This document shows positions 3,837-26,583 of a DNA stretch of 41,789 nucleotides, piece after piece. Source of the stretch: Candidatus Thermoplasmatota archaeon. GTDB lineage: Archaea; Thermoplasmatota; E2; DHVEG-1. The stretch's first letter is position 1, and every line of letters begins with the position of its first letter. The notes beneath the pieces are model-generated. The model had not been told where the DNA came from, did not search any database, and worked only from the letters and a program-made list of their open reading frames with translations. Location of the stretch: the NCBI GenBank assembly GCA_038884455.1, contig JAWABU010000014.1:1-41789 (forward strand), given 5' to 3'. The position numbers were made by a program, and so were the translations under genes.

Positions 3837-6800
3837 ATGTCAGAGGATTTCATACGAGGGGAAAAACAATCGATTCATAACCAGAGTGCTTCAGAAAATA
3901 TCTTTTTTCTTGATGATAGAACTCCTGGTTTCATTCTCAATAAAAAGGGTGTAATCGTAGCAACAAATGAAGCTTTCTGCTATCTCATTGGTTATTCTCA
4001 AGAAGATATCCTCGGCTGTAACATTGAAAATACGAATTTTCTGACTGAAGAATCACGACAACAGATGATGTTTCGAAATGTTTCCCGTTTAGTTGGTAAA
4101 GAAAAACCGTCATTTATGCTTCATGTTAAAACAAAGAAAGGAGATCTTCTTGATTTAGAGATAAATGCCCAACCATATATGAAAAATGGTAAAAATGAAG
4201 GAGAAATCAACATCGTTGTCAACAGGAAAGGAATAGACGTTTTTAAAAATACAGGTATTACTGAGGAAAAGAACATTCAAAACAGTATGTTTACTCATAA
4301 ATCAGATGAACATATCCTCAGGAGAGAGAATGAAGAAATCATGAGATTAAAATCAGATTTAAAAGAAAAGATTATTGAATTAAATAACCAAGAACGGGAT
4401 GTATCAAAGATGACTGAACAATTAAGAATAAGTAAGCTTGAATTAGAAGAAAAAAACCATGAAATTCGACAATTACAACTCGAAGTAACAAGCAGAGATC
4501 AAAAAATTGAAAACAAAAACAGGCAAATCGAAGAAATACAAAAAAATCTTCAACAGAAAGAAACTGAACTCGAAGAAAAAAACTATGAGATTACTCGATT
4601 AAAAAACGATATTGATAAGTACATGAGACGTTTCTCAGTAAAAGAAGAAGAATTTCAAAAATTATTTAATTCCTATGAAAAAATACAACAAGAGGCAATC
4701 AAGCAAGAACAAGAACTACGACAGAAAAAACAAGAAGTTGAGCAATTACAACAGTTAGCAGATAAAACACAAGAAAAACTCAAAGTACTCTCCGATGAAG
4801 TAACTGAAAGAAACGAGATTATTGAAGATTTTAAAAAGCAATTAGAAAATTATGAACAAAAACTTATAGAAAATACAAAACTCATTGAGAAACTTCAACA
4901 AGAAGTAAACACCAGAGAAACAGAAAGTACAATGCGAAACAATGAAATACAACGTTTAAACGAAGAATTACTCAGATTACAACAGATGCTCAACGAAAAA
5001 AATAATGAAATTCGTCAGATACAAGAAATCTGCCAAAAACAAGAACAAGAAAAACTTCAATTACAATCTGAAGTAAATAGAAGTTATCAATCATTAAAAA
5101 CTAAAGAAGATGAACTAAAAACCAAAAACGAAGAGATTATCCAGAAACACAACGAGCTCAAAGAAAAAGAACAAGAGATCAACGAAATTATTTCAAAGCT
5201 TGAAAACAGAGACAGATATACTATTTATCAAAGTGATCTTATCGAAGATCAAGAGAAAGAAATCTCTAATTTAAAAAGAAATTTAGAAGAAGCAAATAAG
5301 ATCATTGAACTGACAAAGCAGGATTGTGAAGAATTAAATGCGAAGATAAAAGAAAAAGAAAAAGAACTATGTACCAAAAATACCGAATTACAAATGCTCA
5401 AACAAGAGCAGGAAAAAAACCAAAAAAAGAATGTAGAGATACATACCGAATTACAACAGATACAACAACAATGTATCTTGCTACAAAATCAACTTCACGA
5501 AACAACTGACGAAAATAATCGATTAAAACAAGAAATTGTACAATTAACTAAAACCTCAAAAAATCTAGAAAATCAAATATCCCAAATGCAGACTATTTTT
5601 AATCAGACAAACGAAGAAGTAAAATCCCGGGAGCAAGAATTACAAAAAATTCAAGAGTTATTGCTTAAAAAAGACCAGGAATGTGAAGAATTAAAATTGA
5701 AATTAGAAAATAAAAACAAATATATCCTCCGCCAAAATACTTTATTTGAAGAACAAGAACGTACAATTCAACAACTAACAACAGATATAGAAGTAAACAA
5801 AAAAGAATTATCTCAAGCAAAACAAGAGTTAGAACAGAAAAAACAACAACTTGCTCTTTCATGTTCACAAATTTCCCAAGTACAACAGGATCTTGAAAGC
5901 GAACGGCGAACGCTTGAAACAACAGGATTTGAGCTCGAAGAAACAAGAACCGAGCTTATGAAAACTCAAAATATATTAGAGATGCGTACAAAAGAACTCG
6001 AGGAAAAACAACAATCATTACTACAACTTACTGAAGAATTAAGAAGAAAAGAAGAAAATACTGTGAAACTAATAGATGAAGTACAAAAAAATAAACATAC
6101 CTTAGAACATCAATCAAAAGAAATAACTGCTTTGCATACTAAAATTCAAAATATGGAACAATTCGCTCTCCATCAAGAAGAAATACTTAAAAATAAGGAT
6201 AACGAAATCATTGGCTTGAAAATCGAATTAGACCAAATATCACGAGAATTAAAAAATAAACAGAAAGATTTTGAAACAGTTAATCATCAACTGAATTTTG
6301 AAAGATCTCAGGTAGAACTTCAGAAGATAGAGATAAACCGCTTACAAACACTATTAGATAGTCAAGAATCAACCCTTATTTCAGTTCAAAATGAACTCAA
6401 AAATACAAGAGATGAACTGATAAACAGCAATAACTGTATTGAAGAAAAACAAAAAGAACTTGATCAAACAAAATTTGAACTTGAAAACGTACAAAGAGAA
6501 CTTGCACAAGAAAAAAATGACCCAAAAAGAAAAGAATTAAAAGAAACACGGAAGGAACTTGAAACATTACGTATCATATTTGAAAAAAATAAAGCAGAAC
6601 TAGAAGAAAAAAATCATCTCCTTGAATTATTAAAATCAGACCTAAAAATAAAAAATGATGCAGTAGATGAACTACAAAAACAAATAATCGATCAAAAAAC
6701 AGCTATTACTCATAAAGATGCAGTGATCTGTCAAATACAAACTGATTTAAGGCAGTTAGAAACAGAGATAGTTACAAAAGATAATATCATTGAAAATCTT

Positions 6801-9800
6801 GAAAAACAACTTTCAGAACAACAAACGACTTTGACGAAGAAAAATGACCAAATACATCAACTTCTCGAAGAAAATCAGAAAATTCAAAGAGATTTAGACG
6901 ATACTAAAAAATTAATCAATGAGAAACTGTGGGAAGTTAACGAAAAGGATCAGGAGATCCACTTTTTAAAAACAGATGTTGAAAACAAAATAAAAGAAAT
7001 CGCGCAATTAAAAAAAGAGTCATTGGATACTCAAGAGTTATTAAACTCAACACAACTCAACCTTCAACAACTTACTGAAGATTTAAAACTAAAAGAAAGC
7101 GACTTACAGATAAGAACAGCAACTCTTGAACAAATGCAAAATGAAATAATACATCTCCAGAATGAACTGAAAATAAGAAATGACATCATTGGTAATCTAG
7201 ACGGTCAACTTTCAGAACAACAAACAAAAATTATACTACAATCAAACACGATTGAGCAGTTGCAACAAAAGATACAGATCTCTTCAGAAAAAATAAATAG
7301 TATCTATGAAGAACTAGAAGAAAAAAAGAGAAATGTAAACGAACTTGGAGAAAAACTACATAAAACAGAATTGCAACAAAAAATTCTTGAGGAGCAATTG
7401 GTAACAAAAGATTCACATATCAATAGTTTGTCTTCAGAATTAAATCTGATGCATAACCAGCTATCTGCATTAAAAAATGTTATGACATCTGCTCTTTTGA
7501 TTTTGGATTCTGAAAATAGAATCGTATCGTGGAATGAATCCGCATCAAAATTACTGAATTTATCAAATGAAAATTCTCGGGAGAAAACAGTTTTTTCGCT
7601 CTCCTTTATGTCTGATCCACGGATTCAAACTGGTTTACATCATTCGATAAAAGATAAAAAAATGGTAGTTGAAAAATCTATCTTTTTAGCAACTGGCAAT
7701 GGCAAGAATATCTTAACCGATATTATCAACATGCCGATTCAAGATCCGCATGGAGTGATACAGGGAACAATGATAGTTATTGACGATGTAACAGATAAGG
7801 TGGCTTTACAATCTGAAATACAGTTGAAACAAGAGGAGATCACAGCATTGAAGAATGATAATCACACTCTTTTGAAAAAAGTGTCCTGTATTGAGAAAGA
7901 ATTAAAAACAACCGAAGAAAGATTAAAAGAAAGCATGCAGAGTCTTGATCAAAAACAAAACATAGTGAGTACGTTATATACTGAGATACAACAGAAAGAC
8001 GAGGCAATCTCTCTTCTCAATCAAGAGTTGGACCATAAGAACCGTGATTTATTAGAAACAAAAAACGCACTGAGTAACAAAGAGCATGATCTTGCTAATC
8101 TGCAAAACAAATGTGTTTTCTTACAAAATGAAATTACAGCGATAAAAGAAAATTTATCTAAAAGTATGGCAGAAAAAGAAGCAATTGAACAATCAGCAAA
8201 AGAGATTGAGCAAAAACTCAAAGAAAAAGAAAACAGTATCACAGAATTACAAAAGATATGTGATCAGCATAAATATGTAGTACAACAGAAAGAAACAGAA
8301 CTTGTTTTTGTATCAACAGCGTTAGATAATCTTAAAAAAGAATTGGCCCAAAGAAATGATCAGATAATTGAATTAAAAAGTGAACTAGCGCAAAAGGAAT
8401 TACTATTGCAATCAAAAGAAATAGAAATTGAAAAACAGCAGGTAGTAGTATGTCAGATGAAAAACGAAAATGAACAATTGAGAAGTGAGACTGATGCAAC
8501 AAAACAAGCAATACAACAATTTACAGAAGAATTGAAACAATTACAACTCCTCAGTACTCAGTTAAAACAGGATGTCGAAGAAAAAGACAAATCTATCAAA
8601 GTACTTTCTGAAGAAAAAAATATGCTCAATAGTCAAATCATTGAAAAACAAAATGAGATGACAGAATTGCAAAACACAATTCAACAAACGCAGCAAGAAC
8701 TCGAAATAGTAAGAAAACAATTAACAGCAACTGAGTGTGAAGTAGTACAACTGAAAAATGAACTGGCAAAAAATCAGACAATACTTGAAATGACAAATAA
8801 AAATCTTCAAGAGAAAAAACAAGAACTTGAAACTGCCCGAAATGAGCAACGAGATGTGCTGATACAACTTGAGAACGTTTTACATGAAAAAAACAGCATA
8901 CAAAAAGAACTAGAGCATCTAAAGGATACTAGTGAAACACTTGAGCACGACCTCAGAATACGAAACGAAATAATTGAACAGATGCAAAACGAATTTATGA
9001 AAAATCAAACACGGATTACAGAAAAAGAAGCGAAAATTAACCTTCTTCAAACTAAAGTATCTGAACAGGAAAAAAACTTAACGATAAAAAACGCAGAACT
9101 TCAAGAATTACAGGTTACCTACGAAAGACAAAAAGCAATGATTCAACAATTAGAACGAGAAAAAGAACAAATTAACAGTTTATTTATCGGGATGCAGGAC
9201 TCCTGTACCTATCCGATAATCACCTTAGACAAAAACAATAAAATTTTAAATGTAAATAAAAATGCAGAGGAATTCTTTGGATTGTCCAAATCTGAAATGT
9301 ATGGACAACAAATCAATTCCATCGGTCTCGGCATACAAGAACGAGTTTCCGAAATGTTTAAGCTAGTTAAAGAACAGAAAAAACCGAGTACAATCCAATC
9401 TGTAAGTATAGAAACAAAACAGGGAGCACGCTATTTAACTGATATCTCAAACATCCCGATTATCGATGCCCAAGGAACCGCCATCGGATCAATAATGCTA
9501 CTGCAAGATAAAACATGGCTGATCAATGCACAAGCAGATATACGACGAAAAGAAAAAGAATACAAAGAGTTACTTATTCGAAATGAAGAACTATCGAAAA
9601 AACTCACGATAGCTGATGAAGAACTGAGGGCTACAAATACCATACTTGAACAAAAAAATAAAGATATCGTTGAAAAACAAAACAAGATTGAAAATTTACT
9701 CTCCATTATTCAAAATCAAAAGAAATCTAACGAATATAAAGATTCAGAAATTCAAAAATTACGATCAATGCTTGAATCAAAAGAAACGACGTTTAAAAAA

Positions 9801-12299
9801 ATTGAATCTGAATTTGAAAAGATTACAAAAGAATTACAAGAAAAAAATAACGATATTATTCAAATGAAAGATAAGCTGTTTTCGACAGAACAGCAGCTAG
9901 AAGAAAAAAATAAAGAATATACACACCTAAGTAATGAGTTTGAATCACTTCAAAAACAACTACAAGTAATCACAATGGAGAAAAATCAAATCCTTGAACA
10001 AATGAGAAATCAAGCAGAAAGACTATTGAAAAAAGAACAGGAAAACAAGCATCTTTTAGAAGATGTGTTAAAAAAGGAAAAAGATTGTGACTGGAAAACA
10101 TCAGAACTTGAAGAAACGCGATGGCTTTTAAACAAAACACAACTGAAAGTTGAAGAATTACAACACACCATTCTATTTAAAGAAAAAGAATTACAACAAA
10201 AACAAGAACAGCTTCAGGAGCTTAAAATATTCCTTGAGCAAAACAGAGATCAATTTAATCAAAGCATTGTAGAAAAAAATAATCAACTAAACCAACTAGA
10301 ATCAAAATTAAAAGAAAAAGAAAAAGAAATATGTCTACTGAATCGAGAGATTGAAAATAAAAATAGAGAAATTACCCTGTTGAATGAAAAAAAGACTCAA
10401 GAAGATGCCATGAAAAATTCTTTGCTACTGCAACAAGAAGAATTAAATAAAAAACAAAATGAGATTAGCCGATTACAGGCTGAAATACAACAAATTACAA
10501 CAGCCGAAGAAAAACTCCAAAACGAATTAGCTGAGCGAAATAAGATTATTGAAGTATTGAAAGATCAATTGACGGAGAGACAGTTGGTCTTAACTCAGAA
10601 AAGTAGCCTTTTTGATCATATCCAAGAACAATTAAATGTCCAAGAAAACAGGATCACAGAAAAAACAAATGAAGTAATCGAATTACAAACAAAGTTACAG
10701 CAAGCAAATTCAGAGTGCCAAAAAGTACAAAAAGAGTGCGATCTGCTGAAGGGTACAGTAAAGCATCTTGAAAAAGAACTCAGTACAAAGACAAAAGATC
10801 TTGATGAAAGTAGAACCAGGCTGTCTTTTGTTGAACAGGAGTTGCAAACAATAAAAAACAACTTTGATGCTCAACTTGCGCATATAACATCACTTGAAAA
10901 AAATCTTGAAAGAAAAAACCAAGAACTGACACAACTTAACAAAGAAAAAATAGACCTTGAAACCATGCTCATTAATGTTCAAAACGAAGGAGCAAAACTT
11001 AGACAACAGCTCATGGAAAATCAAAAACATATAACCTTGTTAAATGACATAAAGGAGGAGAACCAACGATTAAAGCAAGAAGTATTACGTCATCAAAAAG
11101 ATATGAATTTTTTGAAAAAACAGTTTGAAGAAAAACACTTAGTCCGGGAGAAAGATGCAGTACAGAAAACTTTAAAAGAGAAAGAAAAAGAACTCGAAAA
11201 AAAACAAATCGAAATCGAAGAGTTATCTCGAGAATTGAGAGCTAATCAATCAGCGATTAACTGGTTTAAAACAGCTATCGAAAAGCATCAAGCAGAGCTT
11301 TTATCACTTCAACAGAAAAACCGCGAATATGAACTTTCCATCCGGGAATATCAAGAACTTAAATCAACTCTAGAAGAAAAAACAAAAAATATTGAGCAAT
11401 TGCAAAAACAGATCGAATGGTATCAAAATGAAAGACATCAAACACAGAAAAAATTCGAAGAATTGCAACAACAATTTGAGCAGATTTTAGCTGAAAAGAA
11501 CAGGATCGCTCATTCGTTTAATACGGTTACGAATGCGATTCCTTCACCAGTTATTATGACCGATAGAAATCATGCAATTGTTATGATGAACAAACAAGCG
11601 GAATACTATCTTGGAATCCCTACTGAGAAGCTCATGGGACATACGATCTTTGAAGTTGATTCATTAAATAAGGAACGAATCCGATCAGGATTAAAACAAT
11701 CAGAAACTGAGAAAAAACCAGTTAATATTAAATCGATATCGGTTGAAGATACACGGGGTGACATGCACTTGATTGATATTGTGAATATGCCTCTGTTTGA
11801 CAGTTCTGGTGATATCAATGGGTCGCTAATGGTGTTAAACGATGTTACAAATATTAATGAATTACAGGTAGAACTTCAAAAAAAGCAAGAAGAGGTATCG
11901 TCATTGTTAGTAAAATGTGATGAGATATATACTAAATACAAACTTGCTGATGAAGAGCGAACTGCGGTATTAAATGCGCTATCTAACCATCTGAAACCCG
12001 CTGAAGAGAGCACATCAAAGATTGTTAATACTGGTGTAGATCCTACAGAAAAAAACAATATGAGTATCGACGTACAAGAAAATGCTAAATTAGATACGTC
12101 TCATGATGTTGTATCTAGTGGTACCCCAAAAGAATCAGCAGCGATGAATATCTCTATTCAATCGGCAAAACATTCTCCTGCTGAAATGGATCATCTGTTA
12201 CGTGAAAAATTAAAAATCTATGCTGAGATTGATAAGTATCTAGAATCACGGGGGCTTGAGCTAAAAACAAAGAAATTAAAAGATGAAGAAGGTAAATAA
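3837..12299 (+). CDS. Giant PAS/coiled-coil protein (2820 residues)
   Basis: ATG 3837 follows GGTGAGG by seven bases. Four PAS-type sensor domains are visible at about residues 22-135, 1208-1320, 1778-1900 and 2556-2675. The last three share a closing pattern, (L/I)xDIxNxP(I/L)xDxxGxxxGxxxxxxD. Nearly everything between them is uninterrupted coiled coil rich in Glu, Gln, Lys and Leu, with recurring phrases such as ELEEKNHEI. There is no membrane span, histidine kinase, receiver, HAMP or methyl-accepting domain. PAS domains bind ligands or cofactors and mediate dimerisation, so the protein looks like a very long, probably parallel-dimeric scaffold with sensors along its length. It sits upstream of an archaellum locus, so a polar-organising or motility-signalling role is possible but unproven. 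The frame is intact throughout, which argues against a pseudogene. Confidence 0.85.
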   Translation: MSEDFIRGEKQSIHNQSASENIFFLDDRTPGFILNKKGVIVATNEAFCYLIGYSQEDILGCNIENTNFLTEESRQQMMFRNVSRLVGKEKPSFMLHVKTKKGDLLDLEINAQPYMKNGKNEGEINIVVNRKGIDVFKNTGITEEKNIQNSMFTHKSDEHILRRENEEIMRLKSDLKEKIIELNNQERDVSKMTEQLRISKLELEEKNHEIRQLQLEVTSRDQKIENKNRQIEEIQKNLQQKETELEEKNYEITRLKNDIDKYMRRFSVKEEEFQKLFNSYEKIQQEAIKQEQELRQKKQEVEQLQQLADKTQEKLKVLSDEVTERNEIIEDFKKQLENYEQKLIENTKLIEKLQQEVNTRETESTMRNNEIQRLNEELLRLQQMLNEKNNEIRQIQEICQKQEQEKLQLQSEVNRSYQSLKTKEDELKTKNEEIIQKHNELKEKEQEINEIISKLENRDRYTIYQSDLIEDQEKEISNLKRNLEEANKIIELTKQDCEELNAKIKEKEKELCTKNTELQMLKQEQEKNQKKNVEIHTELQQIQQQCILLQNQLHETTDENNRLKQEIVQLTKTSKNLENQISQMQTIFNQTNEEVKSREQELQKIQELLLKKDQECEELKLKLENKNKYILRQNTLFEEQERTIQQLTTDIEVNKKELSQAKQELEQKKQQLALSCSQISQVQQDLESERRTLETTGFELEETRTELMKTQNILEMRTKELEEKQQSLLQLTEELRRKEENTVKLIDEVQKNKHTLEHQSKEITALHTKIQNMEQFALHQEEILKNKDNEIIGLKIELDQISRELKNKQKDFETVNHQLNFERSQVELQKIEINRLQTLLDSQESTLISVQNELKNTRDELINSNNCIEEKQKELDQTKFELENVQRELAQEKNDPKRKELKETRKELETLRIIFEKNKAELEEKNHLLELLKSDLKIKNDAVDELQKQIIDQKTAITHKDAVICQIQTDLRQLETEIVTKDNIIENLEKQLSEQQTTLTKKNDQIHQLLEENQKIQRDLDDTKKLINEKLWEVNEKDQEIHFLKTDVENKIKEIAQLKKESLDTQELLNSTQLNLQQLTEDLKLKESDLQIRTATLEQMQNEIIHLQNELKIRNDIIGNLDGQLSEQQTKIILQSNTIEQLQQKIQISSEKINSIYEELEEKKRNVNELGEKLHKTELQQKILEEQLVTKDSHINSLSSELNLMHNQLSALKNVMTSALLILDSENRIVSWNESASKLLNLSNENSREKTVFSLSFMSDPRIQTGLHHSIKDKKMVVEKSIFLATGNGKNILTDIINMPIQDPHGVIQGTMIVIDDVTDKVALQSEIQLKQEEITALKNDNHTLLKKVSCIEKELKTTEERLKESMQSLDQKQNIVSTLYTEIQQKDEAISLLNQELDHKNRDLLETKNALSNKEHDLANLQNKCVFLQNEITAIKENLSKSMAEKEAIEQSAKEIEQKLKEKENSITELQKICDQHKYVVQQKETELVFVSTALDNLKKELAQRNDQIIELKSELAQKELLLQSKEIEIEKQQVVVCQMKNENEQLRSETDATKQAIQQFTEELKQLQLLSTQLKQDVEEKDKSIKVLSEEKNMLNSQIIEKQNEMTELQNTIQQTQQELEIVRKQLTATECEVVQLKNELAKNQTILEMTNKNLQEKKQELETARNEQRDVLIQLENVLHEKNSIQKELEHLKDTSETLEHDLRIRNEIIEQMQNEFMKNQTRITEKEAKINLLQTKVSEQEKNLTIKNAELQELQVTYERQKAMIQQLEREKEQINSLFIGMQDSCTYPIITLDKNNKILNVNKNAEEFFGLSKSEMYGQQINSIGLGIQERVSEMFKLVKEQKKPSTIQSVSIETKQGARYLTDISNIPIIDAQGTAIGSIMLLQDKTWLINAQADIRRKEKEYKELLIRNEELSKKLTIADEELRATNTILEQKNKDIVEKQNKIENLLSIIQNQKKSNEYKDSEIQKLRSMLESKETTFKKIESEFEKITKELQEKNNDIIQMKDKLFSTEQQLEEKNKEYTHLSNEFESLQKQLQVITMEKNQILEQMRNQAERLLKKEQENKHLLEDVLKKEKDCDWKTSELEETRWLLNKTQLKVEELQHTILFKEKELQQKQEQLQELKIFLEQNRDQFNQSIVEKNNQLNQLESKLKEKEKEICLLNREIENKNREITLLNEKKTQEDAMKNSLLLQQEELNKKQNEISRLQAEIQQITTAEEKLQNELAERNKIIEVLKDQLTERQLVLTQKSSLFDHIQEQLNVQENRITEKTNEVIELQTKLQQANSECQKVQKECDLLKGTVKHLEKELSTKTKDLDESRTRLSFVEQELQTIKNNFDAQLAHITSLEKNLERKNQELTQLNKEKIDLETMLINVQNEGAKLRQQLMENQKHITLLNDIKEENQRLKQEVLRHQKDMNFLKKQFEEKHLVREKDAVQKTLKEKEKELEKKQIEIEELSRELRANQSAINWFKTAIEKHQAELLSLQQKNREYELSIREYQELKSTLEEKTKNIEQLQKQIEWYQNERHQTQKKFEELQQQFEQILAEKNRIAHSFNTVTNAIPSPVIMTDRNHAIVMMNKQAEYYLGIPTEKLMGHTIFEVDSLNKERIRSGLKQSETEKKPVNIKSISVEDTRGDMHLIDIVNMPLFDSSGDINGSLMVLNDVTNINELQVELQKKQEEVSSLLVKCDEIYTKYKLADEERTAVLNALSNHLKPAEESTSKIVNTGVDPTEKNNMSIDVQENAKLDTSHDVVSSGTPKESAAMNISIQSAKHSPAEMDHLLREKLKIYAEIDKYLESRGLELKTKKLKDEEGK

Positions 12300-12315: not shown

Positions 12316-12942
12316 TTACAAGAGAGAAACAACGTTTTTTGTCGAAAAGGGAATGTCGAGGGTTATCGTTCGTATAATACCATTTGGTATCAAGAACGTT
12401 ATACTGAGTTGATCACCATTTTTTATATGAATTTCTTCGGGTGTTTTTATAATAAGGTAGGTTAAATCAGTATGATCATTCAATATATTATGGGCAACAA
12501 GCGAGTTATCGAGGTCATGAATCGAAAGAGCGCTGTAGGTGTTGTTAGAAAGAGTTTCCCATTGAGGATGGGAAAATAAACTATGATGTGTTTGTAGTAG
12601 TTTGGCATTCCCATTGTAGCGAAGTATTTGTACGGTATCACCAGTATTTAGCGTAATCACCATGCTTGAAAGATCAATATTTGCTGTTACAAGTGGTTCG
12701 ATGAGGATTGCAATGTTCCCAATTTGTCGATGAGTATCTATCATTGAATACTGACCTAGTATCCCTTCTATTTGCAGATACGTTGAATATTTCGTTGCTA
12801 CCGTATCAATAATTTGGGTGAGGTTTTCTTTTGTTACACTGTTTGACTGATTGAGTAGTACTGAGGTAGCTGTTGCACCGACGAACAGAATTGTAACGAG
12901 AATGAGGATAGCTGTTAATCCAAGAGCGCCGTGAGTGTTCAT
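12316..12942 (-). CDS. Divergent archaellin-like protein with minimal signal peptide
   Basis: 208 residues. The start MNTHG followed by ALGLTAILILVT is a class III (prepilin/archaellin) signal with a leader of only five residues, Gly at -1 and Gly at +3. It then has the ~25-residue hydrophobic helix expected of an archaellin, and a beta-rich domain with archaellin-like phrases (MVITLNTGDTVQILRYN). It lacks the VGIG(T/A)[11 protein letters not shown] core shared by the other archaellins here, so it may be a minor filament protein, a basal or hook-like subunit, or another type IV pilin. Its 3' end lies 16 bases from the end of the giant PAS gene, and its promoter region is divergent from the LSm-archaellin gene. 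Confidence 0.65.
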   Translation of the reverse strand: MNTHGALGLTAILILVTILFVGATATSVLLNQSNSVTKENLTQIIDTVATKYSTYLQIEGILGQYSMIDTHRQIGNIAILIEPLVTANIDLSSMVITLNTGDTVQILRYNGNAKLLQTHHSLFSHPQWETLSNNTYSALSIHDLDNSLVAHNILNDHTDLTYLIIKTPEEIHIKNGDQLSITFLIPNGIIRTITLDIPFSTKNVVSLL

Positions 12943-12976
12943 GGTTCCACGTTTATTCTGATGTTAAATAAATTTG

Positions 12977-12990
12977 TTTTATATATAAAT
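12977..12990 (-). promoter_or_regulatory. TATA box for the divergent archaellin-like gene
   Basis: On the minus strand this reads ATTTATATATAAAA, about 35-48 bases before the ATG at 12942. The 307-base gap up to 13249 holds this element, a facing TATA box at 13158 and otherwise only AT-rich sequence. Confidence 0.45.
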
Positions 12991-13157
12991 ATTGTTATAC
13001 AAATATATCCTATTTTATGCAAATAATCCCATGAATCTAAGATGAAACAATCGAGCTGTATCGAGTCATCCAGTTAGTGTTTATAGAGAGAAAGAACAAC
13101 CTCAGTGACATTCTATCACACTGTCATTTTTACATTTTGTACTTCAACCGGCAAATC

Positions 13158-13167
13158 CTTATATATT
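13158..13167 (+). promoter_or_regulatory. TATA box for the LSm-archaellin gene
   Basis: CTTATATATT, preceded by an A-rich stretch that could act as a BRE. It lies about 85 bases before the start codon, leaving a leader of about 55-60 bases that includes the AAGGTGA ribosome site at 13229-13245. Confidence 0.45.
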
Positions 13168-13249
13168 GTTAGTTGAGAACATTGTACATGTTAAAATTTA
13201 CCATGCCGTTAAAAAGCATGGGCAATGAAAGAAAACGAAGGTGAAACGT

Positions 13250-14155
13250 ATGGAAAAGAAATATATGGAAAGGCTGGTTGGAAAGTACTGTAAAATAGTC
13301 ACAAAAGAACCTGGAGAAGAACGAGCAAGTGTCGTAACCGGAATATTAGAAGATGTCGACTACAAAGACGGTTTTATTTTAGTTGACTCAAATCAAGGCT
13401 TAGGCTGTCTACGAATTAATACAATCGTCGCCATCAAACCGGGAAATAAAAAACGACAAGAAAAAAGAAATATTAAATCACACACCGATGCCGATGTAGG
13501 TATTGGTACGCTCATCGTCTTCATTGCGATGGTTCTCGTCGCAGCAGTCGCAGCAAGTGTTATTATACAAACAAGTGAAACTTTGCAGCAACGAGCACAA
13601 AGCGTCGGTACACAAACCATCAGAGAAGTATCATCCGGTATAGTCATTGATGATGTTATTGGATATACCAATGCAAATAAAACACGAATTAACTATATGC
13701 TTATCTCAATACGACCTCGCGCAGGATCACAAGATATCGATTTAAAGCTCTGTGAGTTACTAATTTTATACAACAAACTCTCCGTACTAACATTGAATAC
13801 CTCATTAATTTCTCCAGTGAATACAGGATACAGAACTGTATTTGAAACACCGATAGCAACAAATCATTCAATATGGCTCATGAACAAAACAACCAATGCA
13901 ACCTTCGCAGCAATCGCATTACATGATCCTGATGCCTCCATTTCAAACACCCAGGGTATCAACAGTGGAGACCGAGTATATATTCTTGTGAATCTCAGTG
14001 CAGTGCTGAATACAAATCAAAACGATTGGACATATTCAGGACTAGAAGCCCGTGGTTCGATATCTGGATCGATAAAGCCTGAGATTGGTGCAAAAGGTGT
14101 CTTTGAAATCACTGCACCTGCAGTATTTAGCAAAAGAATCGTCCAAATGTGGTAA
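13250..14155 (+). CDS. Archaellin with N-terminal LSm-like domain
   Basis: 301 residues from ATG 13250, which sits just after AAGGTGAAACGT; a GTG at 13241 overlaps that ribosome site. Residues ~5-65 look like an Sm/LSm fold: LVGKYCKIV, then VTGILEDVDYKDGFILVDS, then CLRINTIVAIKP, matching the strand-turn order of Sm1 and Sm2. A basic linker (GNKKRQEKRN) leads to a normal archaellin signal and core, [17 protein letters not shown], starting near residue 82, and a ~200-residue archaellin domain. Ordinary archaellin leaders are about 5-20 residues; this one is ~81. No in-frame ATG, GTG or TTG lies between the LSm part and the signal, so the fusion is real in this sequence. Cleavage by ArlK would free the LSm-like part in the cytoplasm. 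Archaellin identity is firm; the LSm call rests on pattern reading. Confidence 0.8.
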   Translation: MEKKYMERLVGKYCKIVTKEPGEERASVVTGILEDVDYKDGFILVDSNQGLGCLRINTIVAIKPGNKKRQEKRNIKSHTDADVGIGTLIVFIAMVLVAAVAASVIIQTSETLQQRAQSVGTQTIREVSSGIVIDDVIGYTNANKTRINYMLISIRPRAGSQDIDLKLCELLILYNKLSVLTLNTSLISPVNTGYRTVFETPIATNHSIWLMNKTTNATFAAIALHDPDASISNTQGINSGDRVYILVNLSAVLNTNQNDWTYSGLEARGSISGSIKPEIGAKGVFEITAPAVFSKRIVQMW

Positions 14156-14159
14156 AAAG

Positions 14160-14186
14160 AGAAGAAGCTACAATTTTCCTTCTTCT
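14160..14186. terminator. Bidirectional terminator hairpin
   Basis: AGAAGAAG at 14160-14167 pairs with CTTCTTCT at 14179-14186 around an 11-base loop, with A and T runs on the two sides. It lies in the 37-base gap between two convergent genes and can serve both. Confidence 0.55.
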
Positions 14187-14192
14187 TTTTTA

Positions 14193-15716
14193 TTATTTTT
14201 CTGGTTTTTCAGAGTTGGGTTCTTTCTTAATTTGTTTAATAACTGTAATCTCTGCTTTTTCACCTTTGTAAATTGCTGGTTTTAGATAGACTTCTGCAGA
14301 TTTCTTTTCATTATTTTTTGTTGAAAAAATCGTACAGTAATTGGAAACATCATTTCCCTTCAATCGATTAAGATAATATCGTTCGACATCAGATAATCCT
14401 TCAGGAGCAATAAAATCAAAAAGGCTTTTTTCAAGAAGTTCTTCAGATGAAAAACCAATAAAATCAGTAAACAATGCATTGACTTGTTTTAAAATGCCAC
14501 GTTGGACGACAGCCGCACATTCTGAAAGATCACTAACAAGATCTTGAGGTTCAGATATCTCTTGACTCTTTTCTTGACGTAGAGATTGGACCGGTTCATT
14601 CGCTGGAGATAGGTGCTCTAATTGTTGCTGTAACAGCCGTTCTTCTTCAAATAAAGCATTCCTTCGTTTTTCAATTTCTGCTTCAGCCTCTATTAATTTT
14701 TCTTTCCAACTGCTAAATTCAGCGATTTTCTGATCAATTTCTTTCCGTTCTCTAAGCAGATCTGATTCTTTTTTAAGCAGCTCTTGTCTCTGCTGATCCA
14801 ACTGCTGTAAGCCGAATGCTATCTCTTCTTTTTTTCGTTTAAACCCAAAAGGATCAAAAATATCAAATCTACCTTTCTTGGGAGCGCGTTTTGAAAGTTG
14901 TTTTTTTCTTAAATGGAAAATTTTATTATTTGACACATCTGCCGAATTGAGAGATGGCTGATTTTTTTTCACGTGTTGTAAATTTTGTTCGAGTTGAATA
15001 TTCTTTCGCTCTAAGGATCTATTTTTTTTATCAAGATCTTTTAGTTTTTGATTTAAAATAGAATATTTTTTTGATAAATCACGAATCTTTTTTTCCATAG
15101 CGTCCTGGTCTTTCATCTTTTTTAAAGTGCCATCAGCCTTTTCCTGATGAGTATCATATGTATCAAGAAATCTACTATTAAATATATCTCTACTGTTTGA
15201 TGGTGATTTTTTGTCTATGGATGCATCAGCAGTAATTGTCTGATCGTTTAGTTCAAAAGACGTTTGAATTGTATCCTGGAATGTATTCTGTAGACAATCA
15301 TTTTCATGCAGAATCGAATTGCCATGTTGGAGATAGGGGAGACTTTGTGTAGAATGTCCCTGACTATCCGGTATAGTCCCAATGAAGCAAAAGATTGGAT
15401 CTGACGATTTTGTGTTTAAAGGAAAACCATCCCATAAAATAGTAATTTCAGCACCATTCTTCTTTTTAATTGGGAGTTCAACACCTTGAATAAATCCCTG
15501 AGTTTCTATTTTTTCTAGTTGTTCATACCATCTTTTGATAAAGCGCAAAGGAACTAAAAAATCAAGTGTTTTTTGCCGTATAATATCTCCACGATGATAC
15601 TCCGTAATTTTTTGACATTCATGATCAAATTGAACAATAGTTTTATCTCTAGAAATACCAAAAATAAGTATTCTTGCTGTATGCTTTTCTAGATTTGTTG
15701 AATCGATACTATCCAT
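14193..15716 (-). CDS. PAS/coiled-coil protein, cytoplasmic
   Basis: 507 residues from ATG 15716. A PAS-like domain at about 10-130 (RDKTIVQFDHECQKITEYHR onward, ending GFPLNT...IFCFIGTIP) is followed by a spacer, a long coiled coil (about 200-400), and a second PAS-like domain (about 405-490: ILKQVNALFTDFIGFSSEEL). There is no kinase, receiver or membrane segment. It resembles a small version of the giant PAS protein upstream and is divergent from the archaellum operon. Start: GAGGAG abuts the ATG with no spacing, so leaderless use or the in-frame ATC nine bases beyond the site should be considered. The open frame extends to 16034, but that part is antisense to arlC and its promoter. A sensory role in motility is inference. 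Confidence 0.75.
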   Translation of the reverse strand: MDSIDSTNLEKHTARILIFGISRDKTIVQFDHECQKITEYHRGDIIRQKTLDFLVPLRFIKRWYEQLEKIETQGFIQGVELPIKKKNGAEITILWDGFPLNTKSSDPIFCFIGTIPDSQGHSTQSLPYLQHGNSILHENDCLQNTFQDTIQTSFELNDQTITADASIDKKSPSNSRDIFNSRFLDTYDTHQEKADGTLKKMKDQDAMEKKIRDLSKKYSILNQKLKDLDKKNRSLERKNIQLEQNLQHVKKNQPSLNSADVSNNKIFHLRKKQLSKRAPKKGRFDIFDPFGFKRKKEEIAFGLQQLDQQRQELLKKESDLLRERKEIDQKIAEFSSWKEKLIEAEAEIEKRRNALFEEERLLQQQLEHLSPANEPVQSLRQEKSQEISEPQDLVSDLSECAAVVQRGILKQVNALFTDFIGFSSEELLEKSLFDFIAPEGLSDVERYYLNRLKGNDVSNYCTIFSTKNNEKKSAEVYLKPAIYKGEKAEITVIKQIKKEPNSEKPEK

Positions 15717-15775
15717 CTCCTCAACCCAATACGTTCTAGTGTATCTAGATAGATTAACTCGACAATGACAAAACG

Positions 15776-15788
15776 AATATATTTTAAT
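15776..15788 (-). promoter_or_regulatory. TATA-like element for the PAS/coiled-coil gene
   Basis: On the minus strand an A/T-rich TTAAAATATATTC-like box lies about 60 bases before the ATG at 15716. It shares the ~200-base divergent region with the archaellum operon promoter. Confidence 0.35.
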
Positions 15789-15850
15789 ATATTTTGATTT
15801 TTTCGATAAACCGCTTCTTGGATAAAAGACTCGGAAAAAGTAAGTAAAAG

Positions 15851-15858
15851 TATAAATA
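15851..15858 (+). promoter_or_regulatory. TATA box of the archaellum core operon
   Basis: TATAAATA, 65 bases before the probable arlC start at 15923. A second candidate, GTTTATATC at 15869-15877, would give a leader of about 25 bases. Either places the GAGGAGGGG ribosome site (15908-15917) within the transcript. Confidence 0.45.
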
Positions 15859-15922
15859 CCTGAATACGGTTTATATCTAGTAAGAGCAAGTAATAATGTG
15901 AATACAATGAGGAGGGGTTGCA

Positions 15923-16861
15923 ATAAAACTAAAACTGGGAAAAGAGGAGACTGTTGAGAAGCCGATACCAAGCGGAGGGGGAACACAAGAGATAAAGCCT
16001 GCAGAAACACCGAAACCAAAAGAACAAGCAACACAAGAGCAAAAACAAACTGTAGATGCGCTACGAACCGTTATAAAAGTTGATCAAAAAACACCCTCTG
16101 CTGAAGAAGCAAAAAAACCAGAACAGAAAAAAGAGCAAAAACCTCAAACTCCAGATACAAAAGAAAAAGCACCACCAACAATTCCAACGATACCAAAAAT
16201 ACCTCAGCCGCAAGCTGCAGCAGCACCTGCTGGAGGTTCTCGAGAAGATTTAGAACAGCGGCGAAATATCCTCCAAAGTATTAAGGACTTTGATTTTCAG
16301 ATAAAGAAAAACCAGGAGGATATCGGAAAATTAACAGAAAAGATTGATAGTCTTACCAAGGATCTTGATGACTTAGTCAGCCTCTATGAAATTGTCTCAG
16401 AACAGATGAATCCTTTTGTTGGCCTGTCAAAAGTTACAAAAAAACGACTTGATGCACTTGAAAATTTTACTAAAGAAATTGAAACATTAAATACACGAAT
16501 TGGAGAAATAGAATCGGTTCTCGAAAAGAATAAAATGATTTTAGATGGTAAGATACCACAACCTCAAGTAAAACCAGCTGTACAAAACAAGCCTGAATTA
16601 AAACCAACGGAAGCGGTATCAAGCAGTAGCGACAAACAAAGTATACCTGTTCAAGGAGAAACAGATGAAAAGAAATTGAGCCAAGAAATACCAAACTCTT
16701 CTGTCGTCGAACCTCAAATTAATTCTTCGTCAGATTCAGATGTATGGAGTAATTTTACCGATGAGGATCTTGATCGAATCCTAGCAGAATCTCTTTCATC
16801 ACTTATGATTGATCAAAACATTGATTCATTGATAAATGATTTTTTACTAAATTTAAAATAA
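15923..16861 (+). CDS. arlC: Archaellum protein ArlC (FlaC/FlaCE-like)
   Basis: About 312 residues. ArlC, ArlD and ArlE form the euryarchaeal archaellar cytoplasmic switch complex, which links the motor to chemotaxis signals. Seen here: a Pro/Lys/Gln-rich disordered N-terminus (about 1-105), a coiled coil, and the diagnostic LVSLYEIVSEQMNPFVG segment of FlaC-type proteins (about 150-168), then more coiled coil and an acidic tail. Start: GAGGAGGGG at 15908-15917 is followed by in-frame ATA at 15923. No ATG, GTG or TTG occurs in frame before 16406, and starting at 16406 would cut the diagnostic segment in half. It is the first gene of the core operon. Motif identity is strong; the ATA start is an inference. 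Confidence 0.85.
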   Translation: MKLKLGKEETVEKPIPSGGGTQEIKPAETPKPKEQATQEQKQTVDALRTVIKVDQKTPSAEEAKKPEQKKEQKPQTPDTKEKAPPTIPTIPKIPQPQAAAAPAGGSREDLEQRRNILQSIKDFDFQIKKNQEDIGKLTEKIDSLTKDLDDLVSLYEIVSEQMNPFVGLSKVTKKRLDALENFTKEIETLNTRIGEIESVLEKNKMILDGKIPQPQVKPAVQNKPELKPTEAVSSSSDKQSIPVQGETDEKKLSQEIPNSSVVEPQINSSSDSDVWSNFTDEDLDRILAESLSSLMIDQNIDSLINDFLLNLK

Positions 16862-16937
16862 CTGTAATGCGTTTACTGTTTACGGAAAATATTTAAAAAG
16901 AATAAAAATACAACTAACCTTGAGGAGAAGAAAGACT

Positions 16938-17708
16938 GTGCCTGAAAAGTTCGATATAGATCTTGAATTAAAGTCTATACTCGAAAAAAATTTATTACCT
17001 GCACGAATTGTTGACCGAATTGGAAAAAAAATCAAAGAAAACAATATTTCAATTTCAAAAGAACAGTTGTATGAATTGGTAAATAAGATCCAAGGTATTC
17101 TCCAAAACTATAGCAAGAATAAACAAACAATAACCGTTGAAAAGAGAAACGGACAAAAAACACCGGTTCAATCTCCTGAAGAAGTCCAAGACATGAAGAA
17201 ACTCGTTGAAACCGTCGAAGAATTAAAGGAAAGGATAAAATCTATTGAAGAACAACGTCTTGAAGGTGTTAAAGGCGTTTCAGGACGAATTATCAAAACA
17301 AAAGATATGATGAATCAACAGCAGGAGATTGTTGAATCTGATGAACCGATGCAGCCTTTAGAACTGATTCCTAATGACCCTGAAAGTATTGTTGTCTTAA
17401 TGAAATGGCTCCAATATCTTGTTGATAAAATTGGTAAAAATAATCTCCCAGACATTCTGAGCTATTATGTTGATATCGACTGGATTACTGACGATGTCCG
17501 ACTTGATCTTATTGAATATGCAAAAGGAATCAGCGACAGTACCGCAGAAATAAAAGAACCACCAAAACTGGTAACGAAAGACCATATTCAATCATTACTC
17601 TTTATCCAGAAATTAAAAGGTAAAAATCTTAACGAACGTTTTATCTGGAAGATAGATCGCGAAATGGAAAAGATGGCAAAAAGTATCGAAGAATATCAAT
17701 TAAAATAA
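16938..17708 (+). CDS. arlD: Archaellum protein ArlD/E (FlaD/FlaE)
   Basis: 256 residues from GTG 16938, ten bases after GAGGAG at 16922-16927; the in-frame TTG at 16920 overlaps that site and is rejected. The N-terminal half is helical and charged with a coiled coil (about 75-105). The C-terminal half has the FlaD/E domain signature: LELIPNDPESIVVLMKWLQ, then a LVDKIGKNNLPDILSYYVDI segment ending in DWITDDVRLDLIEYAKG. It is part of the cytoplasmic switch complex that receives chemotaxis input through CheF in other euryarchaea. No separate ArlE gene is present, so this and ArlC probably cover the whole set. It lies 76 bases after arlC. Confidence 0.88.
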   Translation: MPEKFDIDLELKSILEKNLLPARIVDRIGKKIKENNISISKEQLYELVNKIQGILQNYSKNKQTITVEKRNGQKTPVQSPEEVQDMKKLVETVEELKERIKSIEEQRLEGVKGVSGRIIKTKDMMNQQQEIVESDEPMQPLELIPNDPESIVVLMKWLQYLVDKIGKNNLPDILSYYVDIDWITDDVRLDLIEYAKGISDSTAEIKEPPKLVTKDHIQSLLFIQKLKGKNLNERFIWKIDREMEKMAKSIEEYQLK

Positions 17709-17807
17709 ACTTTTTTAAGTCGAAAGACATTACGTATTGCACCATAAACTAACCATGAAGGGGATTTTGGAGCACATACAATGTATCAAAATCTGGAGGG
17801 ATATTAG

Positions 17808-18236
17808 ATGGGATTTTCACTCGTTGCTGCATTCGGCATCATTAGTATTTCAGTGATTATTGGGCTGCAGATTTTTACAGCAACAGTGATCCCAAGCATC
17901 TCGGAAACTCATACATCTTTTATTCACTGTGTTAATCGAGGTATGAACAAAATTCAAACAGATATAAGCATTTCCAACGTCGTGATTGTAGAAAATGGTC
18001 CAAACTACAATCATATTGTATCAGTAAAAAATATCGGTAGTACTACGCTTTCAACAGCTCAGTGTAGTATTGTTCTTAATGGTGTTGTATATCCTCATTC
18101 CTGTCCAGAAGCGTATTTGTATCCACAACAAACTGTAGAGTTTACTCTTGAAGATATACCTGGTGCTGGTATTCAACGCTTGAAAGTAATTACCGATTAT
18201 GGGATAGCTGATTATTATGAATATACTATCGTATGA
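17808..18236 (+). CDS. arlF: Archaellum stator protein ArlF
   Basis: 142 residues with one N-terminal membrane helix (about 5-30) and a beta-sandwich outside domain with two cysteines near Cys87 and Cys99. This is the ArlF/ArlG layout: an archaellin-like fold anchored in the membrane, binding the S-layer and forming the stator around the rotating filament. ATG 17808 has a good GGAGGGAT site. It is 12 bases before arlG. Assigned to ArlF from its position before arlG and arlH; the two proteins share the opening MGFSL and the same plan. Confidence 0.85.
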   Translation: MGFSLVAAFGIISISVIIGLQIFTATVIPSISETHTSFIHCVNRGMNKIQTDISISNVVIVENGPNYNHIVSVKNIGSTTLSTAQCSIVLNGVVYPHSCPEAYLYPQQTVEFTLEDIPGAGIQRLKVITDYGIADYYEYTIV

Positions 18237-18248
18237 AGGTGAAACATA

Positions 18249-18698
18249 ATGGGATTTAGTTTAACCGGTGCGCATGTAATCTTTTTTGTTGCAGCAATTA
18301 TCGTTGCAGGAGCAGTATCCGGTGTTTTTATTGGAGTAACAATGAATATCAGCAACTCTTTAGCAGATCAAGGAAAACGACTCCAAGACCAATTAGATAC
18401 TGATTTTACCATTATTAACGATCCCCAAAGAATACCACTTTCTGGAGATGGAAATTACCGCATTTTTTATTTGAAAAATATTGGAGGAAAAGAATTAATT
18501 ACAAACAATCAAACTATGCATATTTTTATCGACGGTGAGATTGTACCGCAGAGATACTATAATTTCTCAGATGCTTCAATCCATCAATCAGAATATACGA
18601 ATCTGTATATAGTTCAAACGTTACTTAGCGCAGGCAATCATGTACTACGGATTGTTGGGCCGCAAGCTGTTGAAGATGACTTCATATTTACAATATAA
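18249..18698 (+). CDS. arlG: Archaellum stator protein ArlG
   Basis: 149 residues: membrane helix at about 8-30 (IFFVAAIIVAGAVSGVFIGV) followed by a beta-rich extracytoplasmic domain with the typical YRIFYLKNIGGKEL phrase. ArlG forms a filament capped by ArlF that ties the archaellum motor to the cell envelope. ATG 18249 follows AAGGTGA. It is eight bases before arlH, in the conserved F-G-H order. Confidence 0.88.
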   Translation: MGFSLTGAHVIFFVAAIIVAGAVSGVFIGVTMNISNSLADQGKRLQDQLDTDFTIINDPQRIPLSGDGNYRIFYLKNIGGKELITNNQTMHIFIDGEIVPQRYYNFSDASIHQSEYTNLYIVQTLLSAGNHVLRIVGPQAVEDDFIFTI

Positions 18699-18706
18699 AA
18701 AGGATT

Positions 18707-19426
18707 ATGGCTATGCAAGAAGCAAAATCTCTGATGTTAAAGAGAAAAGGCGAAACCGACGGTTTTGCTGAACGATTTGGTGTTGAAATACCAAATGGTT
18801 CACTAATATTCATGGAGGGAAAAGAAGGTACTGGAAAAAGTATTTTTTGCCAGAGATTTTGTTATAGCTTCCTATTGAATGGTCATACTTGTTCATATGT
18901 TTCCACCCAATTTACCATTAAAAGTTTTCTTAGACAAACTGCTTCAGTCGGCTATGATATGAGACAATACCTGATGTCAGGGAAACTGTTTTTTATTTCC
19001 ACAGAGGTAACGCTTGCTGAAACAAAACCAAAAAAGACATTTCTCGAAGCGTTGATGACTGGAAAAAAATTATTTGATCCTGAGATTATTTTTATTGATT
19101 CTATTTCTACATTGCTCAATGAAAGTCTTAATAAAGAAAATCTTATTGATCTTACCAGTTTTTTAAACCGTTTAAAAGGTTCAGGAAAGATCATTGTACT
19201 AACTGCGAATCCAAATGACTGGCCCGCAGAAATCCATAATGCGTTCAAAATGTTTACCGACATTCATTATCGCATTAGCCGCGAGGCAATGCCCGGTGTC
19301 GGCGTTGTTCACAATCTCTATATTGAAAAGTTTAATGGTGCACGAAGAAAATATGAACCTATGACAACCTTTTCAGTGAAGCCAAACGTTGGTTTAAGTA
19401 TCGAATCAAGTGGTGTAGCCTTCTAA
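18707..19426 (+). CDS. arlH: Archaellum ATP-binding regulator ArlH
   Basis: 239 residues of the RecA/KaiC-like family. Walker A is GKEGTGKS (38-45) and Walker B ends in IIFID (D131). ArlH binds ATP, interacts with ArlI and is thought to set the assembly or rotation state of the motor inside the ArlC/D/E ring. Length and order (between arlG and arlI) match the family. Start ATG 18707 follows AAAAAGGATT; MAM gives a second ATG six bases later. All recognised ATP-binding residues are present. Confidence 0.93.
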   Translation: MAMQEAKSLMLKRKGETDGFAERFGVEIPNGSLIFMEGKEGTGKSIFCQRFCYSFLLNGHTCSYVSTQFTIKSFLRQTASVGYDMRQYLMSGKLFFISTEVTLAETKPKKTFLEALMTGKKLFDPEIIFIDSISTLLNESLNKENLIDLTSFLNRLKGSGKIIVLTANPNDWPAEIHNAFKMFTDIHYRISREAMPGVGVVHNLYIEKFNGARRKYEPMTTFSVKPNVGLSIESSGVAF

Positions 19427-19444
19427 ATAGGAGGGGATAGGATT

Positions 19445-21073
19445 ATGACAAAGATGGAAAAAGATGAAGAAGAAAAACTGATTCGTGATAATCCTCATTT
19501 GAAACGATATCTTGATGAAATCAGCAGTAAAATGCCCCGTCCTGTTTTTTATAGCAAAGTACCTCGCGATTTAAAAGGAGAAAAAAATCCAAATATCATC
19601 TATCCAACAAAAGGTGTTGTCTTCATCCATATTTATACTCCTGAAGGCGCCGAATTTAAAGAATATCATTCTGTTGAGCCAGTATTAAACGAGGTTGAAG
19701 AAAAAAAGCGAGATTATATCCTTGAAAAGATTTACGAACGTGCACCCTACCGAGAGCGCGTGAAAACTGATGAAGAGATTAAAAATGCGGTGAAAAAGTT
19801 TCTCGATGAAATAACAATCCTTGATGAAAACGCTGGGAGCGAATTTAAACTATCAAAAGGGAAAGTCCGCATCTCGTCTGTAGAACGGATGGATATTGAA
19901 TACGATATTTTAAAAAATATTGTTGGTGGTGGACCACTGGAATGCTTTATGCGTGATCCGTACATTGAAGATATCCATATCATAACTGGAGAAAATGTCC
20001 ATCTGATCCATAAGGTCTTTGAGATGGTTAGAACCAATATTCATATCGATAAGAAATGGGCGAGTCGTTTTTCACAGGAGTTCGCAGAAAAAATTGGAAG
20101 CCCGGTAAGCGAAGGACAACCAATTGCCGATGGTACATTACCTGATGGAAGTCGAGTGAATATTATCCATAGTAAAGATGTGAGTTTAAAGGGGCCGACG
20201 ATGACCGTTCGAAAATTCAGCGAAGTTCCAATTAGTATCACACAACTGATTAGTTGGGGAACTCTGTCAACAGCAGTCGCTGCCTATTTATGGCTCTGCT
20301 TGAATTACGGCCGAAGTATCTTTGTCTGCGGTGAAACCGCGTCTGGAAAAACAACAACATCAAATGCAATGTTTGTATTTATTCCTCCTGAGAAGAAAAT
20401 TTTTTCTGTCGAAAACACTCCTGAAGTTCAAGTTCCCCATGCTGTTTGGCAACAACTCCTGACACGAACAACTGGTCCGAAAGAAGGACATATCCTTGAA
20501 GGTGATCTCCTAAGAGCAGGTCTCCGTTCCCGTCCTGATTATATTATCCCTGGAGAAACTCGAGGTATTGAAGGTCGCGTCGTTTTTCAAGCTATGCAAA
20601 CTGGTCATCCTGTAGTAACAACGTTTCATGCAGGATCAGTTACCAAAGTTATTCAACGGTTCACAGGTCATCCAATTAACATTCCAAAAACATTTATGGA
20701 TAACCTTGACGTCGTATTAATTCAGATGGCCGTTGAAAGAAAAGGAAAAAGGCTTCGCCGGGTACTCTCAGTCGATGAGATCGAAGGATACAACAAAGAA
20801 GTCGATGGTATTATGTCAAGAAAAGCATTCGAATGGAACCCGGTTGATGATTCTCATATATTTAAAGCATATCGGAACAGCTATGTACTCGAGCAACGCA
20901 TAGCAAAAAACGCAGGATATACCGATGTCAACCAGATTTATGATGAATTCGATCGCAGAAAACATATTCTTGATCGTATGATTGAGGAAAAGATTTTCGA
21001 TTATTACGAAGTCGTACAATTTATTTGGACATTCTATCGCGAGGGAGAAAAAGGTCTACCGATAGCACTCTAG
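19445..21073 (+). CDS. arlI: Archaellum motor ATPase ArlI (copy 1)
   Basis: 542 residues, the usual length for ArlI, the hexameric ATPase that powers both filament assembly and rotation. An N-terminal domain (about 1-190) leads to GGGPLECFMRDPYIEDI, then the RecA-like core with a standard Walker A, GETASGKTT (about 296-304), Walker B region PDYIIPGE (about 364-371) and His box TTFHAG. Walker B reads IIPGE where many secretion ATPases have IIVGE. ATG 19445 follows GGAGGGGATAGGATT. An ArlI paralogue follows 13 bases after its stop. As this copy keeps the canonical P-loop, it is the more likely principal motor. Confidence 0.93.
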   Translation: MTKMEKDEEEKLIRDNPHLKRYLDEISSKMPRPVFYSKVPRDLKGEKNPNIIYPTKGVVFIHIYTPEGAEFKEYHSVEPVLNEVEEKKRDYILEKIYERAPYRERVKTDEEIKNAVKKFLDEITILDENAGSEFKLSKGKVRISSVERMDIEYDILKNIVGGGPLECFMRDPYIEDIHIITGENVHLIHKVFEMVRTNIHIDKKWASRFSQEFAEKIGSPVSEGQPIADGTLPDGSRVNIIHSKDVSLKGPTMTVRKFSEVPISITQLISWGTLSTAVAAYLWLCLNYGRSIFVCGETASGKTTTSNAMFVFIPPEKKIFSVENTPEVQVPHAVWQQLLTRTTGPKEGHILEGDLLRAGLRSRPDYIIPGETRGIEGRVVFQAMQTGHPVVTTFHAGSVTKVIQRFTGHPINIPKTFMDNLDVVLIQMAVERKGKRLRRVLSVDEIEGYNKEVDGIMSRKAFEWNPVDDSHIFKAYRNSYVLEQRIAKNAGYTDVNQIYDEFDRRKHILDRMIEEKIFDYYEVVQFIWTFYREGEKGLPIAL

Positions 21074-26320: not shown

Positions 26321-26370
26321 AATCCCCTCGCCTCCCTCGATTAATCACTAAGTTTAGTAGTACCTGAGAA

Positions 26371-26379
26371 GGATATATC
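26371..26379 (-). promoter_or_regulatory. TATA-like box for the ATA-start archaellin
   Basis: GATATATCC on the minus strand, about 50 bases before the ATA at 26320. The rest of the 278-base gap (26321-26598) holds the cassette A terminator and otherwise nothing recognisable; a 22-codon ORF at 26430 is not convincing. Confidence 0.35.
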
Positions 26380-26559: not shown

Positions 26560-26583
26560 ATGATGAGAACTGAATCTCATCAT
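26560..26583 (-). terminator. Terminator of archaellin cassette A
   Basis: A perfect 9-bp stem, ATGATGAGA pairing with TCTCATCAT around a six-base loop, 16 bases after the last archaellin stop. On the minus strand it is followed by two T runs. Confidence 0.65.

Follow-up and report, generated by a model that had tools for sequence, protein, structure and literature searches.

A single reading frame encodes a predicted small-barrel leader and a complete archaellin

We analyzed a 41,789-nucleotide stretch of DNA, hereafter the window, from a Thermoplasmatota genome of 1.70 Mb that is 98% complete and distributed over 61 contigs. Positions 13250-14155 on the forward strand form one open reading frame that begins with ATG, encodes 301 amino acids and has zero internal stops. 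It is preceded by a Shine-Dalgarno-like AAGGTGA (13238-13244, +), which was read from the sequence and is conserved in the upstream alignment. Residues 1-64 (13250-13441) constitute a leader domain with a predicted Sm/Hfq fold, based on an AlphaFold2 model, Foldseek and alignments. Residues 65-81 (13442-13492) form a basic, variable linker that corresponds to the n-region of a class-III signal, with a predicted cut between A81 and D82. Residues 82-301 and the stop codon (13493-14155) correspond to a complete mature archaellin. The Arch_flagellin profile (PF01917) matches residues 82-286 with E 3.1e-30 and 106 bits, against a curated cut-off of 29.5, and the NCBIfam flagellin model covers residues 79-300 (E 1.2e-56, just below the family cut-off). 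In the PDB, the best structural counterpart of the body by Foldseek is the archaellum of Methanocaldococcus villosus (7ofq, E 8e-21). The layout proposed in the first-pass annotation, a segment of about 65 residues, a basic linker and an archaellin in one frame, is thus borne out by the reading frame and the profiles.

We considered two trivial explanations for this arrangement. An assembly, sequencing or frameshift artefact, which the first-pass annotation had named as grounds for refutation, is excluded because we recovered 32 distinct full-length fusions, the window's own included, from many genomes. An internal start that yields a short-leader archaellin was rejected, as the window's linker has no in-frame ATG, GTG or TTG. 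Across the loci no start codon is kept in the linker, and where one is present it is mostly the residue directly past the cut. Both halves are therefore made as one chain.

Upstream of the fusion lies a gene for a giant coiled-coil protein of 2820 amino acids (3837-12299, +), with a conserved C-terminus, EIDKxL...LKTKKLKDEE, that was identified by C-terminal BLAST between loci. The length of this neighbor ranges from ~415 to 2820 residues among relatives, yet the C-terminal motif is kept; it is unique within the window's genome. Between the two genes is a divergent minor archaellin-like gene of 208 amino acids (12316-12942, -; PF01917 E 2.9e-9). It has an archaellin-like N-terminus and occurs beside nearly all fused loci that reach far enough upstream. 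Downstream, a convergent gene encodes a PAS/coiled-coil protein (14193-16034, -; PAS E 2.5e-8; start codon uncertain). The archaellum cluster follows (16406-21073, +) and comprises an arlD/E-type protein, ArlF/G-like proteins, an ArlH-like protein and an ArlI-like ATPase. These assignments are based on PF04659 (E 7e-26), PF01917-type stator genes and a KaiC-family match (E 1.9e-17), and ArlI was assigned by reading the sequence of the ORF at 19445. The order is conserved between loci: coiled-coil gene, divergent 208-aa gene, fusion, PAS or other genes, and arl cluster.

The window's genome has 11 Arch_flagellin matches, 10 of them inside the window, and a single copy of the leader. The other window archaellins that we inspected have ordinary short leaders (for example, ending DIG|DVGIGA), so the long leader is specific to the fused gene. 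The genome encodes one Peptidase_A24 protein and two canonical LSM-family proteins, neither of which is the fused leader.

The leader is predicted to adopt a small-barrel fold

The first-pass annotation had described the leader as Sm/LSm-like from its strand pattern. We built an AlphaFold2 model from 39 homologues, with a mean pLDDT of 87.6 and block means of 94-95 over residues 11-60. The model comprises an N-terminal helix (residues 3-9) and five strands (13-18, 27-37, 42-47, 50-55 and 59-64). The full-length model reproduces these elements, places residues 71-83 below 50, indicating a disordered linker, and continues into the archaellin helix (85-128). A Foldseek search of the PDB returned 971 matches at E ≤ 10, none of them at E ≤ 0.001 and the best at 0.011. 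The top match is GerQ (8zra; TM 0.71, 14% identity), a Bacillus spore-coat filament protein that has a small Sm-like barrel, as predicted for the leader, although no sequence relation between them is apparent. The further matches are dominated by Hfq (M. jannaschii, Listeria, Caulobacter and Staphylococcus) and LSm/Sm proteins; GatD and tudor domains are among the few SH3-like barrels of other kinds. The prediction and the fold search thus uphold the Sm/LSm-like claim at the level of architecture.

The predicted helix and five strands are shared with known Sm/LSm/Hfq proteins (M. jannaschii Hfq, 2qtx and 5dy9; Mth649, 1jbm), and the Foldseek TM score to M. jannaschii Hfq, normalized by target length, is 0.75-0.84. 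However, the leader has no match to the LSM profile (PF01423) at E ≤ 1. By alignment inspection, it lacks the Sm1 Asn and Sm2 Arg-Gly of the pocket and has D37-x-x-D40-G41 and RINT instead. It further differs by an insert, VTKEPGEE, that separates strands 1 and 2, and by ending in a conserved AIKP; CKxVTKEP and AIKP are its own invariant features. The net charge of residues 1-64 is about 0. A profile search with the leader alone retrieved only the RimP C-terminal SH3 domain (E 0.003, below its cut-off), and a PDB sequence search with the leader profile gave zero matches. The assignment to the small-barrel class is well supported by the model and the fold search. An Sm barrel, as opposed to another small barrel, is likely but not proven, because the Foldseek E-values are modest (0.01-0.09) and the top match is GerQ.

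The fusion is a trait of a whole order

A scan of species genomes for the leader identified 45 loci, all in Thermoplasmatota-type MAGs. Combining these with the loci of a whole-genome search gave the 32 full-length fusions, all distinct, and a further one that is cut by a contig start; all of them belong to one archaeal order. The domain is present in 44 of 52 genomes within the order and in none of 28 from the rest of the class. The first-pass annotation had proposed to look for further archaellins with LSm-like leaders; they prove to be characteristic of the order and not a one-off.

Thirty-two genomes encode ArlD/E (PF04659). The fusion was found in 29 of these, including G008, where it is cut at the contig start. 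For the other three, the contig ends before the expected place, ~3.9 kb from ArlD/E: in G010, ArlD/E lies at 3392 of contig C5, and the contigs of G026 and G044 are 3178 and 6304 bases long. Every reachable site is fused, and therefore no archaellum-bearing genome in the set is demonstrably without the fusion. It is single copy in nearly all genomes. At one locus (L037) there is a tandem pair of fusions (4001-4870 and 5128-5997), the second with GIET, not GIGT.

The predicted cut site is fixed within a drifting linker

The first-pass annotation had placed the cut just before the hydrophobic archaellin core, and the alignments corroborate a conserved class-III site at this place. Ala or Gly immediately precedes the predicted cut (-1), and Gly occupies +3, in 32/32 fusions; a hydrophobic core follows. 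Both positions are ones on which FlaK-type processing depends (PMC4307647). The linker between fusions has an average identity of 33%, despite these fixed residues. The basic residues usual at -2/-3 are not conserved and are often acidic or neutral. The ordinary archaellins of the window's genome have the same -1 residues as the fusion.

The archaellin body resembles known ArlB/FlaB proteins (M. villosus 7ofq; Oxiplasma meridianum ArlB, 8rh5) in its core helix and beta-rich head, and also in its class-III cleavage site and its place in the arl cluster. The leader is what sets it apart: 81 residues up to the predicted cut, with a folded domain, whereas archaellin leaders typically have 6-12 residues (PMC4307647) and the 26 residues of Oxiplasma were called unusually long (PMC12448462). 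A survey of archaeal Lsm proteins (PMC10221803) makes no mention of flagellin, archaellin or such a fusion. Our literature search found no paper linking archaellin and Sm-like proteins, nor any archaellin whose cleaved leader is a folded cytoplasmic domain. The fused leader is a new architecture within the archaellin family.

The leader is retained where the archaellin is lost

Over 496 pairs of fusions, the median identity is 76% for the leader and 51% for the archaellin body, with the linker lowest, at the 33% given above. At about equal pS, pN is 0.13 in the leader and 0.34 in the archaellin. Purifying selection acts more strongly on the leader than on the archaellin to which it is joined.

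Fifteen genomes have no PF04659 or PF01917 matches, and 11 of these still carry the leader family, as free proteins only. The free leaders found after archaellum loss are 67-83 amino acids long. In a phylogeny, type A (32 fused sequences and 8 free ones) is split from type B (16 free paralogues) with support of 99/96. Free type-A sequences sit among fused ones at several places in the tree; since the tree is built on 66 columns, the number of independent losses cannot be firmly counted. Free type-A leaders, too, are under purifying selection, with a pN/pS of 0.05-0.18.

Two genomes preserve remnants of the fusion. The G038 chromosome, assembled as a single contig, has no other archaellum genes; its leader is intact for 83 codons and 89% identical to that of the window, and the archaellin body in the same frame carries four in-frame stops and is a pseudogene. 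In G031 the leader is likewise intact, with the downstream archaellin disrupted by frameshifts and one stop. A coiled-coil gene with the conserved C-terminus adjoins the free leader in L030, L032, L036, G038 and G031. The 208-aa archaellin-like gene is absent beside the free leaders of L030, L032 and L036.

The survival of the leader beyond the archaellin is our main reason for believing that selection maintains the free form and not the precursor. The earlier idea of the leader as a separable protein gains support from this retention. The free leader probably has a function of its own, which fits release by processing.

The type-B family (L040-L057) consists of free Sm-like proteins of ~70 amino acids from the same order. 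Several of their genes lie near secreted proteins, integrases or, at three loci, a gene for an EarA-like regulator. Some have different conserved upstream sequences in common.

A covarying hairpin precedes the leader gene

The region upstream of the fusion is conserved as a continuous block from the TATA box through the Shine-Dalgarno site. The TATA-box region ATCCTTATATATTG (13155-13171, +) is gapless in 32 loci and was assigned by consensus only. A conserved block follows, TTGAGAACA-N4-ACATG (13173-13190, +; alignment consensus TTGnGAACA-N4-ACATG), probably at or just past the transcription start; it is the only 0-mismatch match in the window. Covariation then identifies a putative 5' UTR hairpin, CCATGC(CGTTAAAAA... 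loop 9)GCATGG (13201-13221, +; arms 13201-13206 and 13216-13221), followed by GNAATGAA (consensus GnAAYG).

Of the 37 UTRs, 26 contain a perfect stem of ≥ 6 bp, where shuffling would give 2.8. In a gapless alignment of 24 sequences, 24 cells changed on both sides, compared with 7.8 in shuffles (0/500), a count that is not a probability because the sequences are related; the safer control is to slide the partner, which reduced pairing from 85% to 23-40%. With 11 secreted-protein loci added, there were 46 covarying cells versus 16.4 shuffled, and sliding lowered the paired fraction from 84% to 23-42%. Covariation thus exceeds both the column make-up and the register controls, as expected of a structured leader RNA. 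Variants of the stem keep complementarity (CGTGTTA/TAACACG, CGTGGTA/TACCACG and TATCACGTTA/TAACGTGATA). Folding of the window's UTR as a single sequence was uninformative (z -0.33), and the support for the hairpin comes from covariation, not folding energy.

A covariance model recovered the leader gene from most of the order's genomes; the element is present on the leader gene, fused or free, in nearly every genome. Matches beyond this gene (E 3e-9 to 1e-3) lie upstream of genes for secreted or surface proteins, comprising a C25 protease, a 240-aa family, a ~390-aa 'WYDLQT' family and NosD/PKD beta-helix proteins. The second-best match in the window's genome (E 0.07, C54:2376) precedes a gene whose 241-aa product belongs to the same family of secreted proteins. 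We did not find the element upstream of the window's other archaellin genes, and upstream of the type-B stand-alone genes there were only weak, chance-level matches. The hairpin is newly found and is a candidate RNA target of the leader. Rfam models gave no match at E ≤ 1 over 12900-14300; the element (13155-13221) and its relatives (L132-L147 and L156-L163) may represent an undescribed leader-RNA family and a surface-protein regulon.

A proposed free regulator linked to archaellin processing

To our knowledge, no prepilin peptidase releases a large folded leader, and we know of no answer to how archaea match archaellin synthesis to assembly. The best explanation of our observations, to which we assign a probability of about 0.5, is that the leader acts as a free regulator with an Sm fold, coupled to the processing of archaellin. 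The precursor has two parts, a predicted Sm/Hfq-like barrel joined in frame to a complete archaellin, with a conserved class-III signal at the joint. We infer that the prepilin peptidase cleaves the A81|D82 bond. Every subunit processed in this way would add its archaellin to the filament and leave behind, in the cytoplasm, an Sm-fold protein of 81 residues. The freed protein would be the working form, a regulator whose amount tracks archaellin processing. As there are about ten archaellin-family genes here, it would report on the fused subunit only. The weakest step is the target: the most likely one, though weakly supported, is the hairpin RNA of the leader's own gene and of a few secreted-protein genes, which would provide feedback on that gene and link archaellum production to other surface proteins. 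The coiled-coil protein encoded next door is an alternative partner. The most far-reaching version, in which archaellin export acts as a signal and each peptidase cut frees a protein that binds its own and surface-gene hairpin RNAs, setting a post-transcriptional programme, strikes us as rather improbable. The first-pass annotation had suggested that each exported subunit frees an LSm-like protein that could bind RNA and report filament assembly, or that the domain could hold back or template the precursor; of this, the barrel fold, the conserved site and the retention of the leader after archaellin loss are supported, and cleavage itself, a cytoplasmic pool of free leader and RNA binding are plausible proposals. 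For its example of archaellin mRNAs as targets, the hairpin in this gene's own 5' UTR is a concrete candidate.

Other readings differ in whether the barrel acts attached or free. It could be a prodomain that works only in cis, holding the precursor in the cytoplasm or membrane, or docking it on the coiled-coil protein or an ArlC/D/E ring, before being discarded. Its fixed position before the cut and its fixed place beside a coiled-coil gene with a conserved C-terminal motif would suit this role; however, genomes that lack the archaellum keep the domain intact and free-standing, and additional free relatives (type B) are encoded elsewhere in the same genomes; we regard a purely cis role as unlikely. 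Less likely still is a special subunit that is never cut and whose retained leader ties the filament base to a cytoplasmic structure. Each genome has one copy, which heads the archaellum cluster and stands away from the tandem archaellin genes; this and the missing basic residues at -2/-3 typical of FlaK substrates point that way, but an anchor of this kind is hard to reconcile with the invariant -1 and +3 residues in an otherwise drifting linker, or with the same kind of site in ordinary archaellins of the window's genome.

A free leader could also be a regulator that never contacts the hairpin. The barrel would bind a protein, such as the coiled-coil neighbor, and the hairpin would be an mRNA-stability or translation element of highly expressed surface genes. 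The absent Sm pocket residues, the neutral charge, the hairpins upstream of unrelated secreted proteins and the coiled-coil gene beside the free leader at the five loci named above all fit, and we consider this a genuine possibility, if short of an even chance. It leaves aside the presence of the element on the leader gene in nearly every genome, which an autoregulatory target would explain. A separate doubt concerns the element itself, which might be a DNA operator and promoter read by a transcription factor. It is contiguous with the TATA box and contains CATG/CACG repeats at ~15-16 bp spacing, but the stem sequence varies freely while complementarity is kept, and the slid controls fall from 84% to 23-42% paired; we find the operator doubtful.

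The logic proposed for a freed regulator resembles bacterial FliW-CsrA-flagellin homeostasis (PMC6529632), in which free versus exported subunit sets an RNA-directed regulator. We claim no homology, and here the candidate regulator would be joined covalently to the subunit within one precursor. Release of the leader, if it occurs, would mean that a type III signal peptidase makes two functional proteins out of a single precursor and that archaea possess a built-in counter of exported subunits. Whether this is a new kind of regulation hangs on cleavage and RNA binding.

Other archaellin genes

Two similar arrays of 3-4 overlapping archaellin genes lie ~10 kb apart in the window (25670-28693 and 38706-40791). 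Archaellin 'polyproteins' suggested by long open frames did not survive reading of the frames. At another locus (L169, G047:C18), an archaellin ORF continues into an apparent repeat, a beta-propeller-like C-terminal extension.
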